DNA of 64,000 bases from Flavobacterium sp. N2270. Lineage in GTDB: Bacteria > Bacteroidota > Bacteroidia > Flavobacteriales > Flavobacteriaceae. Position numbers and translations under genes: made by a program. Shown here in pieces: positions 19,194 to 24,929 of the stretch. The notes below the pieces were generated by a model. That model had not been told where the DNA came from and did no database searches. It saw nothing but the letters and a program-made list of their open reading frames with translations. Location: assembly GCF_025947225.1 (NCBI RefSeq), contig NZ_CP110005.1:372001-436000 (forward strand). Reading direction: 5' to 3'. Position 1 is the stretch's first letter, and the number at the start of each line of letters is the position of its first letter.

Positions 19194-22100
19194 ATGAATG
19201 AAATTACAATATATTATAATAGCTCATTACACATTATTTTTCAAAACTATTTAAATCAAAGAGTTAAGCTCGTTACCGATAATGGTTTTTTAAATAGTTA
19301 TGTCTTCATTTATATTGGATTAATTGCAGCACTTTTTTTATTGTTTTATTTGTTTCAAAAAAAATCGTCAAAATTTAATGTTAATACATTAAAGAACTTA
19401 TTTGAATATCATACCGAAAGTGAGCACAGATACTATTTTTTATATCTAGGAATAATTTTTCCTGTCACAGAGATATTTTATATTATTGTTGATTCTCATC
19501 AATTATCGGATTTAAAAAATAGCTTATTCATAGGTCTATATTGTCTTTTAGCCTATTCTGTTACATCTTTAAAAAGCATACAAAAACATACCTCTACCAT
19601 TTTTTTATTAAGCTATGTAACTTATTTTTGTTGTACATTATATCAAATTGTTTTTTATGAAATAACGTTTATTTTATTTTCTGAATTTCTGTTATTATTA
19701 TTCTTTTCATTTAATATCTTTAAACGTTTTGCTATTTACCTTTCATTTATAATAGCTACTTTTTTACTTCTCTTTTATCTTTTATCATACAAATCTTCAG
19801 ACAAGGAAATAATCCTCGCTCTTATAAATGCTTGTTTTATAATATTAATAATAAACTTTGCAAGGCGAATAAATATTATAAAATCAAATGAAAAACTACT
19901 TTTTACCAATGAAATTATAAACAACACAAATTCAATAATTATAGCTGCTGATAAAACAGGAAAACTTGTCTATTGTAATGATTCTATTGAAAAGATATTA
20001 GGCTATACTTCTAAAGAAGTTTTAGGAATGGAGTTTTGGAAATTAACCGAAGACATTGAATTTAAACAAGTAGATTACAATACCATTTTCAAACCTAATA
20101 CGGTTTATACCCGTGTTTTAAAAACAAAAAAAGGAGATTACAAAACCATTCAATGGAGTGATTTTAAATACACGAACAACTTGTTTGTATCTAATGGCCA
20201 AGACATTACTCATTTACTAAATTTAGAAAAGAAATATAGCTCATTAATTCAAAGTGCTAGAGATATAATTTATGAAATTGATGATAAAGGGTATGTAACT
20301 TATGCAAACAATTTTACTATTGAGCATTTAGGATATACATTTGAAGAAATTTTAGGAAATCATTTTACATTTTTGATAAAAAAAGAATACTTAACAACTG
20401 TTGTCGATTTTTATAAAGAAATTAGTCCTAATTCAATTGACTTTGATGTACTAGAGTTTCCTATTTTAAAGAAAGATGGAAGCGAAATTTGGGTTTCTCA
20501 AAAAGTAACTATTAAAAGAGATGAAAAAAATAAAATCGTTGGATATTCATCTATTGTTAGAGATATCACTCAAACTAAAAAAATTGAACAAGAAGAACAT
20601 GAAAAAACAGAACGCGCAACATACCTAAATTCAATTTCAAACAAGCTTTCAACATTAAACTTCCTTACTTTTAAAAACCTAGAATCGCTAATTCAACATA
20701 TTACTAAAGAAGCAGCAATAGGCTTAAACATTAATAGGGTTTGTTTATGGGAAAACAAAAACAACCAAATGTTGTTATACAACTGTTATTCTCTCAATAA
20801 TAACGAAAATCATTCTGGGATTATTTTAAACAAGAAAGATTACCCGTTTTTTTTAAAAAGTGTAGAGAATGAACCTATAATAGTTGCTTCAAATGTTAAA
20901 AAAAACAAACTATATAATGAATTTAATTCTGATTATTTTATAAGTCAAAATATAAAATCAATTATTAATGTACCTATTCATAGTTCAGGTAAATTAATTG
21001 GAATATGTTGCTTTGAAGCCACGGATAACATAAAAGAATGGTCGCACGAAGATATTAACTTCGCCAAAACAGTTACAGAGATAATTGCACTAGCAATAGA
21101 AACCATAAAAAGAAAAGAAGCTGAAGATCAAATTATTTATAAAAACCAAATTTTAACTGCGATTGCAAAAGTAACTTCAAATTTAATTCGCAAAAAAGAT
21201 CCAAATCAAATTTTTGACCAATCATTAAGTTTAATTGCAAAAGCGGTTAATGCAAATAGACTTTACTTTTTTGAAAACAACACCAATACAAATCTAATGA
21301 ACCAAAGATTCGTTTGGACTTCAAACCCTGATTTATATAACTTTAACAATCAAAAACTTATAGACATATCTCATGAAACCTACCCACATTTTATGAGCAA
21401 ATTGCTAAACAAGAAAGTATATAAAAAGATTGTTCATGAAATTAAAGAAGAAAAATTAAAAGAAGTATTACAAGAACAAAAAATTAAATCAATTTTGATT
21501 ATTCCACTTTTCTATCAAAATATTTTTCTAGGCTTTATAGGCTTTGATGATTGTGAGAATGAAAGAAACTGGAGAGATGAAGAAATAAATATTTTAGAAA
21601 CCTTAGCTCATAATATCTCAACTACAATAATTAGAATAAAAAACGAAAAAGCAATAGAAGAAAGTGAAGAGAAGTTTAAATTACTAGCAAATAATATTCC
21701 GGCTGGTGTTTATTTAGTAAAATTTGACGAAGAACGATCAAAAGTATATTTAAACGATGAAATTGAGAAACTAACAGGCTATAGTAAATCTGACTTTTTT
21801 GAAAATAAAATTAAACTTTTCGATTTATATCACCCTGAAGACAAACAAAAAGCTTTAGTAGAAATTTCAAATGCTGTAAAAAACAAAGAATCATTTGTAA
21901 TTACTTGTCGATTGATACGAAAAGACAAAAGTATTGTTTGGGTAGAAGAACACGGTGAAGCAATTTTAATTGATGGAAATGTTGAATATATTGAAGGGGT
22001 TATTCTTGATATTACCGAAAGAAAAGAAACAGAAAAAGCAATTCTTGAAAAAGAATTAGCAATAACTTCAAATAAAGCAAAAACAGAGTTTTTAGCCAAT

Positions 22101-23575
22101 ATGAGTCATGAAATTAGAACTCCTTTAAATGGAATTATTGGCTTTAGCAAATTATTACAAAACACTAATGTAGATGACATTCAAAAACAATATTTAGCAA
22201 CTGTTAACCAATCTGCAGAAACACTTTTAAATGTAGTAAATGATATTTTAGATATCTCAAAAATAGAAGCTGGTAAACTAACACTCGAAAATTCAAAAAC
22301 CAATTTAAATTTTATCGTTAATGATTCTATAGACATGATGAAATACGCAGCTCATCAAAAAAATTTAGCTCTAATTGTAAACATAGACAAAGATGTAGAT
22401 TGCGCAATTTGGACAGATGAAATAAGATTAAAACAAATCCTCCAAAACCTAATAAGTAACGCCATAAAATTTACACTTAATGGCGAAATAGAAATAAAAG
22501 TAACTTCCAAAAAAATTACCGATACAACTTCAAAATACTTCTTTAGTGTAAGAGATACCGGAATTGGAATTAAAAATGAAAATAAAGAATTAATTTTAGA
22601 AGCATTCTCCCAAGAAGATACTTCTACAACAAGAAATTTTGGAGGAACAGGCTTAGGACTTTCCATAACTAATAGTTTACTTAAAATGATGAATAGTAAA
22701 CTTATAATAGAAAGTGAGGTTAAAAAAGGAAGTGTTTTTAGCTTTGAAGTTGTATTAAAAAGCGAATCTTGTAAAAAACATTTCAATCTACTCAATAACA
22801 ACTTTAAAAAGGCAGTCATAATTGATAATAATAAACTTTTAGGGAAAATTATTTCAAATATGTTAAATGGCTTTAGCATAAACAATGTACATGAAGTCAA
22901 TTTCTCTAAAAAATTAATTAACTCAAATTCAGAATTTGATTTAATATTAATAGATTATGAATTTTTATCTAAAGAAAATTTCAATGAAGTTCTAGATGCC
23001 GCAAAATCTAACCCAAAGGCAACCTATTTAATTATGCAAAATTCAACTTCCGATTTTAACAACTTTAATATCTCAAAAAACATATTTTCGCTTATTAAAC
23101 CTTTAAAAGCAAATGTCTTACAAAATATTTTAAACAAAATAAATAATCCAAATCAAAACGTGGAAAAAGTAATTACAGAACAGCAAACAGCAAACAAATC
23201 TAAAATTAATTTATTAATTGTCGAAGACAACAAAATAAACATGTTGCTTACTAAAACGCTTATTTCTAAAAAGTTCCCAAATATTCATATAACAGAAGCG
23301 ACAAACGGACTCGAAGCTTTAGAAATGTTTAGTAAACTAAAACACGAAGTAATCTTAATGGACATACAAATGCCGGTTATGAATGGCTATGAAGCTACTA
23401 AAAAAATAAAAAAGAAAAAACTTCTACTATAATAATAGCTTTAACTGCAGGAATTATTACTGGAGAAAAAGAAAAATGTATGGACATTGGTATGAATGAT
23501 TTTATTATAAAACCGATAGACAAAGTACAATTTGAGAACACTTTATTAAAATGGATAAATACCATTAAAAAATAA
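19194..23575 (+). CDS. Hybrid sensor histidine kinase (7TM-like, PAS/GAF, HisKA, two receivers), frame-shifted near 3' end
   Basis: Very large membrane sensor kinase. About seven hydrophobic helices (residues 35-220), PAS domains (about 235-345, 350-460 and 820-950), GAF domains (about 475-640 and 650-815), HisKA with phospho-acceptor His972 (NMSHEIRTPLN), HATPase (N box LQNLISNAIKFT; DTGIGIK; GGTGLGLSI), a first receiver-like domain (Asp in ILIDYEF, Lys in SLIKPLK) and a second receiver with Asp1390 (LMDIQMP). The zero frame stops at 23430-23432 after EATKKIKKKKLLL, truncating the second receiver. The rest (ALTAGIITG ... MNDFIIKPI ... NTIKK) continues in the -1 frame to a stop at 23573-23575. 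The switch falls in an A-rich stretch containing AAAAAAG at 23408-23414. It may be a sequencing indel, a real mutation, or programmed -1 frameshifting; zero-frame length is 1412 residues. The signal sensed is unknown. Confidence 0.88.
23408..23414 (+). other. Candidate -1 slippery heptamer A-AAA-AAG in the sensor kinase
   Basis: In the zero frame the codons read ATA AAA AAG, so the phase is exactly X-XXY-YYZ for the classic A AAA AAG heptamer. Slipping back one base would continue with GAA AAA ACT and restore the receiver-domain ending. No stimulatory hairpin or internal Shine-Dalgarno site was confirmed; a single missing A in this tract would look the same. Confidence 0.4.
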
Positions 23576-23584
23576 TCCGTTTTA

Positions 23585-23592
23585 TATCTTTG
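23585..23592 (+). promoter_or_regulatory. -7 box upstream of HMG-CoA reductase
   Basis: TATCTTTG fully matches TAnnTTTG, 20 bases before the start at 23613 and just after the sensor-kinase end. Confidence 0.5.
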
Positions 23593-23612
23593 CATATCAA
23601 TTATCAATAAAC

Positions 23613-24929
23613 ATGAATCAAAATATAAAAGGCTTTTCTAAGCTTTCCAAACAAGAAAAAATCGAATGGATTTCAAACACTTATTTTAGTAATCCTGCCA
23701 AAGCAACTGAAACTGTTAAACAATATTGGAATTCAAATGAAGATTTACAAAAACTTCATGATGAATTTATCGAAAATACTTTAACCAACTTTTATTTACC
23801 ATACGGAGTTGCGCCAAATTTTGTCATCAACGGAAAAAATTACACTATTCCTATGGCAATCGAAGAAAGTTCAGTGGTAGCAGCAGCTTCAAAAGCAGCT
23901 AAATTTTGGGAACAAAGAGGCGGATTTAAAGCAACCGTAATCAATACCGAAAAAATTGGTCAAGTGCATTTTTTATTCAAAGGTTCATTTGAAAAACTGC
24001 AGAATTTCTTTTCAGTTATAAAACCAAAATTCTTTTCTGATACTGAAAATTTCACCAAAAACATGCAAAAACGTGGCGGTGGAATTTTAGATATTGAATT
24101 AAGAGACAAAACATCTGATATTGAAAATTATTTCCAACTTCACGCTACTTTTAACACAAAAGACAGCATGGGAGCTAACTTCATCAATACCTGTTTGGAG
24201 CAATTCGCCAAAACATTAGAAAACGAAGCAAGAGAATATAATAACTTTAATGAAGAAGAAAAAAACATTCAAGTTATCATGAGCATCTTGAGTAATTATG
24301 TGCCAAATTGCATTGTAAGAGCCGAAGTTTCTTGCCCAATAGACCAATTAAGTGATGATCCTTCAATCGACTCAAAAGAGTTTGCCGAAAAGTTCGTTAA
24401 CGCTATTAAAATTGCCGAAATTGAACCGTATAGAGCCGTAACGCACAACAAAGGAATTATGAACGGAATTGACGCTGTTATTGTAGCAACCGGAAACGAT
24501 TTTAGAGCAGTTGCAGCCGGAGTTCACGCTTACGCAAGCAGAAACGGAAGTTATTCAAGCTTATCACATGCAAAAATAGAAAATGACGTTTTCACCTTTT
24601 GGATAGATATTCCACTTGCTATTGGAACCATTGGCGGGTTAACCACTTTGCATCCATTAGTTAAATTTTCTTTAGAAATGTTAGGCAAACCAAGCGCAGA
24701 AGAGTTAATGAAAATTGTTGCCGTTACAGGTTTAGCACAAAACTTCGCTGCTGTTCGTTCTTTAACTACAACAGGAATTCAACAAGGACACATGAAAATG
24801 CACATCATGAATATTTTAAATCAACACCAAGCAACAAAAGAAGAAAAAGCAAAAGTGTTAGATTATTTTAAAAACAACACCATTTCTCATAGTTTAGTGG
24901 TTGATTATTTAGAACAATTAAGAAAGTAA
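23613..24929 (+). CDS. mvaA: Hydroxymethylglutaryl-CoA reductase, class II (degradative-type sequence)
   Basis: Cytoplasmic oxidoreductase interconverting HMG-CoA and mevalonate. The 438 residues match class II (Pseudomonas mvaA-type) enzymes. Visible landmarks are IEESSVVAAAS with the catalytic Glu, DSMGANFINT (cofactor region), THNKGIMNGIDAV with the catalytic Lys, GTIGGLTTLHP, and the C-terminal QQGHMKMH with the catalytic His. In flavobacteria this class is presumed to work biosynthetically, feeding isoprenoid synthesis; that fits the adjacent GHMP kinase. It has its own -7 box. The downstream interval carries a dispersed repeat. Confidence 0.93.
   Translation: MNQNIKGFSKLSKQEKIEWISNTYFSNPAKATETVKQYWNSNEDLQKLHDEFIENTLTNFYLPYGVAPNFVINGKNYTIPMAIEESSVVAAASKAAKFWEQRGGFKATVINTEKIGQVHFLFKGSFEKLQNFFSVIKPKFFSDTENFTKNMQKRGGGILDIELRDKTSDIENYFQLHATFNTKDSMGANFINTCLEQFAKTLENEAREYNNFNEEEKNIQVIMSILSNYVPNCIVRAEVSCPIDQLSDDPSIDSKEFAEKFVNAIKIAEIEPYRAVTHNKGIMNGIDAVIVATGNDFRAVAAGVHAYASRNGSYSSLSHAKIENDVFTFWIDIPLAIGTIGGLTTLHPLVKFSLEMLGKPSAEELMKIVAVTGLAQNFAAVRSLTTTGIQQGHMKMHIMNILNQHQATKEEKAKVLDYFKNNTISHSLVVDYLEQLRK

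Follow-up and report, generated by a model that had tools for sequence, protein, structure and literature searches.

A hybrid sensor kinase gene divided within its terminal receiver

The window analyzed here is a stretch of 64,000 nucleotides from the genome of Flavobacterium sp. N2270. On its forward strand, which carries all parts of the locus described below, an open reading frame (ORF) at 19194 to 23432 encodes a hybrid sensor histidine kinase of 1412 aa, as indicated by the reading of the ORF, by Pfam and by homologues. The protein consists of an N-terminal region with hydrophobic stretches, PAS and GAF domains, HisKA, HATPase_c, a degenerate receiver-like stretch and a truncated terminal receiver. 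The degenerate stretch (22800-23170; IIDNN ... LILIDYE ... LIKPL), located upstream of the terminal receiver, was assigned by eye and was not reported by Pfam. The zero frame ends inside the terminal receiver with GYEATKKIKKKKLLL-stop, and the ORF reading confirmed the description, in an earlier note on this DNA, of a frame that stops at 23432 with the tail KKIKKKKLLL.

The zero-frame part of the terminal receiver (23219 to 23420) covers positions 2-68 of PF00072 (Response_reg), and positions 69-108 are encoded, together with a C-terminal tail, in the -1 frame (23414 to 23575; 53 aa and a stop codon), as identified by Pfam, by translation and by a homology test. The open part of the -1 frame begins at 23402, downstream of a TAA at 23399-23401, runs up to the stop that ends at 23575 and encodes IIIALTAG...GMNDFIIKPI; translation and the gapless division of PF00072 thus bear out the earlier placement of the missing receiver part in this frame. 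The zero-frame part matched the family with an E-value of 2.2e-15 and the -1 piece with an E-value of 1.5e-4, the score of the latter (22.3 bits) falling below the cut-off of 30.2 because the piece is only 53 aa long. A genome-wide search with PF00072 divided the terminal receiver in the same way, and chance falls far short of explaining the split. The zero-frame piece retains the phospho-accepting Asp (in ILMDIQMP) and lacks the conserved Thr and Lys as well as the last strands and helices. The loss of the Lys and of the last strands had been recognized from the start, and the present reading adds to it that the Asp is kept and that the Thr is lost as well.

Downstream of the kinase gene, TATCTTTG was found at 23585-23592, between the end of the kinase gene and the start of an HMG-CoA reductase gene at 23613. 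This sequence fits TAnnTTTG, the -7 element of Bacteroidetes, and a separate promoter may therefore serve the HMG-CoA reductase gene.

The receiver in homologous loci

Homologues were drawn from 60 relatives, a genomic contig collection, 398 genomes of the genus and 395 relatives searched at the DNA level. Although 236 of the 398 genus genomes had a match with an E-value of 1e-200 or lower, only part of these became receiver loci that were examined. The receivers of 52 distinct loci were examined, comprising 49 loci (34 recognized by pattern, the other 15 by eye) and three loci from further genomes, and no two of the compared sequences were more than 95% identical over the last 300 aa. The terminal receiver was complete in one frame in all 52 homologous loci; a recheck by pattern recovered it in 51, and the remaining locus (L284) has an intact receiver on direct view. 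The nearest relatives of the kinase share about 58% protein identity and 70% DNA identity with it, and the comparison is thus confined to more distant relatives; the best named full-length homologues, at 41-43%, are from Flavobacterium. The motifs NGYEA and IIIA are 11 residues apart in the closest relatives and also at the kinase locus when it is read across the split, which argues that nothing else has been lost there.

Stop codons were found inside the kinase matches of two relatives. One of these (G031), with an assembly of about 590 contigs, has one TGA and one TAG in one match and one TAA in another, and its receiver (L023) is complete and lies downstream of the stops; the other (G388) has one TAA. 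Therefore, breakage elsewhere in such genes is not unheard of. The orthologues at L005, L006, L122-L127 and L130-L132 lie in far longer open frames of about 2000-2200 aa, which suggests a long extension at their N-terminus.

The slippery heptamer and the tract around it

The frame changes within an A-rich tract at 23400 to 23420 (A7, T, A6, G, A6), in which 19 of the 21 bases are A; no run is longer than A7, and the one beside the heptamer is A6. The codons ATA AAA AAG at 23406-23414 place A_AAA_AAG (23408-23414) in the X_XXY_YYZ phase of dnaX-type slippage, exactly as had been proposed. The frequency of AAAAAAG in the window is at chance level (91 copies compared to a mean of 89.0 in dinucleotide shuffles). 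Among ORFs of at least 250 aa in 464 kb of the genome, made up of the window and the further stretches L136-L155, 35 copies stand in the slippery phase, fewer than the 203 and the 49 in the remaining phases (counts uncorrected for codon usage). Of the 56 in-phase heptamers in ORFs of at least 100 aa, none is followed by a longer open -1 stretch than the kinase copy (53 aa), as expected since the gene is broken there. Two homologous loci (L113 and L115) carry ATA AAA AAA ATA, a run resembling A_AAA_AAA, at the equivalent codons in an unbroken frame, suggesting that the A run is a by-product of coding Ile-Lys-Lys. Moreover, runs of at least 8 A/T occur 209 times in the sampled 464 kb and the kinase tract is therefore not unusual.

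Assembly quality and age of the change

A homology test for split genes, in which 1020 ORFs of two relatives served as queries, covered 464,000 of the 2,791,361 bases of the genome and counted a match of at least 80 bits that covered more than half of the query, or a second colinear piece with an E-value below 1e-4, so that splits close to gene ends would be missed. Among the 148 distinct genes tested (178,830 bases), only the kinase gene was split, and it was found through the orthologues of both relatives; in the reverse control, in which genes of the relatives were compared with the ORFs of this genome, none of 144 was split. Runs of at least 8 A/T, which number 338 in 1,080 kb of one relative (G222) and 17 in 120 kb of the other (G193), are not shortened here relative to these two genomes, and their frequency is in line with the lower G+C content here. 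Taken together, the single split gene and the unshortened runs indicate no general homopolymer trouble in the assembly, and widespread homopolymer error is not supported. Of the 21 receivers found genome-wide with the Pfam profile, all but the split one of the kinase run unbroken through 99 or more of the 111 positions, 19 of these 20 scoring above the cut-off. An ab initio hidden Markov model of frame changes, run on the 464 kb, returned 78 frame changes, most of which are probably ordinary gene overlaps, missed the kinase split and was replaced by the homology test.

Compared with the 12 closest relatives in gapless alignment, the 47 aa encoded in the -1 frame have a mean identity of 0.77, with values of 0.72-0.85 among intact relatives, and the preceding 67 aa have a mean identity of 0.63, compared to 0.61-0.76. 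Decay of the -1 encoded part is thus not visible against these 12 relatives, which indicates that the change is recent, or that it is an error, or that the -1 part is still made.

Origin of the frame change

The earlier note had left three explanations open, namely a sequencing or assembly error, a fixed or phase-variable indel and programmed frameshifting, with a title that leaned towards the heptamer. Only part of this range is supported by the comparisons above, which leave a single error or an isolated indel. We assign a probability of about 0.5 to an isolated, non-programmed loss of one base in the A-rich tract, as a real and recent indel of this strain or lineage. The split, its position and the intact homologues are observed, and the loss itself would have occurred by slipped-strand mispairing at the adjacent A runs in the stretch coding for I-K-K, in a gene that is otherwise intact. 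The main product would then retain the PAS, GAF, HisKA and HATPase domains of the kinase and end in a terminal receiver that presumably cannot work, because the Asp is kept but the Thr, the Lys and the last strands are missing. As the only tRNA-Lys genes found have the anticodon UUU, chance -1 slippage at A_AAA_AAG may also give a trace of full-length protein, probably one without a regulatory role. Several points temper this reading. A lone sequencing or assembly error would look exactly alike, and undecayed sequence downstream is also expected from an error or from working frameshifting. In addition, the in-phase heptamer at the break becomes a coincidence if the change is an indel, although tracts rich in A give rise to heptamers as well as to indels.

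The tract may instead hold one residual error of sequencing or assembly, with the true gene unbroken; we give this possibility somewhat less than an even chance. The frame changes amid runs of A7, A6 and A6 that are parted by single bases, the loci of all 52 relatives are intact and the downstream part encoded in the -1 frame shows no decay, all of which fit an error. Antonov et al. 2013 (PMC3711429) consider frame-shifted singletons of such a kind to be mostly sequencing errors, and singletons with intact homologues are expected there to be errors rather than genuine indels. The finding of just one split gene among those tested argues against a general error, as does the frequency of long A/T runs, which is at least as high as in the two relatives of higher G+C; one error is still compatible with both. 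Of the error explanation, the form with widespread homopolymer error is thus not backed by these tests and the lone residual error still fits.

Programmed -1 frameshifting of the dnaX kind at A_AAA_AAG, giving the kinase with and without its terminal receiver, appears highly unlikely. The heptamer is exactly in phase and, according to two studies (PMC5009743, PMC4066793), belongs to the class most prone to shifting in E. coli; a tRNA search (150 of 293 candidates scored, 47 matches, anticodons read for tRNA-Lys) found two tRNA-Lys genes, both UUU and none CUU, as in E. coli, and the -1 frame stays intact for 53 aa, more than at any other of the 56 in-phase heptamers. The heptamer with its split frame is not conserved, however, and with one frame in 52 of 52 homologous loci, the comparison of orthologues that had itself been put forward to judge programming speaks against it. 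The heptamer is also no more frequent in the window than expected by chance, the 31 bases upstream (23378-23408) contain no Shine-Dalgarno (SD)-like core that could act as a stimulator, and no Rfam match was found around the site (22900-24000). While one 60-nt window, starting at 23418, has a folding energy of -7.7 kcal/mol that 4% of 200 mononucleotide shuffles attain, the other eight of the nine fold windows were reached by 10-68% of shuffles and the 121-nt fold was matched by 22 of 200 dinucleotide shuffles; the hairpin downstream of the heptamer is weak. Shift-prone motifs without stimulators are reported in E. coli (PMC4066793) to shift at 2.1 to 10 times a background of about 0.055%, from which we calculate a shift of at most about 0.5% if these values transfer to this organism. 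Judged by title and the opening of the abstract, none of the papers found on Flavobacterium and programmed ribosomal frameshifting dealt with this subject.

A -1 frameshift that was acquired by chance in this lineage and kept as a working switch, altering phosphotransfer in this species only, seems very doubtful; most of the kinase would then lack the terminal receiver and a small share would carry it through slippage of the UUU tRNA-Lys at A_AAA_AAG. It is also very unlikely that the receiver is switched on and off by slippage of the A runs, or that RNA polymerase slips on them, despite the concentration of A at the break and the precedent of the interrupted tssM of Citrobacter rodentium, which an A11 run rescues by transcriptional slippage according to PMC4256274. 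The longest run at the site is A7 and the run adjoining the heptamer is A6, and such tracts are ordinary in a genome with so many runs of at least 8 A/T. Of the indel explanation, the phase-variable form is thus disfavored, given runs of A7, A6 and A6 and no long repeat, and the isolated indel stands.

If the isolated indel is real, the terminal receiver of the kinase is likely non-functional in this organism, and full-length protein would be made in trace amounts at most. If frameshifting were shown to occur, translation would determine whether this hybrid kinase carries its receiver.

Comparison with known systems

The frameshift in dnaX yields the shorter form of its product, whereas a shift in the kinase gene would yield the longer one. 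The kinase site and the E. coli site (PMC5009743) share the in-phase A_AAA_AAG and a tRNA-Lys with the anticodon UUU as the sole tRNA-Lys found, but at the kinase site no SD-like stimulator was found, the hairpin is weak and there is no conservation. The tssM gene of C. rodentium (PMC4256274) is likewise interrupted before a C-terminal domain beside an A run; this run is A11, compared to A6-A7 in the kinase gene. There is also a likeness to the singleton class of GeneTack (PMC3711429), which covers isolated indels and sequencing errors; with it the kinase shares a frame change at poly-A in one gene, intact homologues and no conserved recoding signal found, and nothing was found to set the kinase apart from it. 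The main value of this case is a caution on slippery heptamers beside broken genes: in a genome with a G+C content of about 30%, such a gene can be expected to have A_AAA_AAG in phase next to it because runs of A-rich codons make both heptamers and indels.
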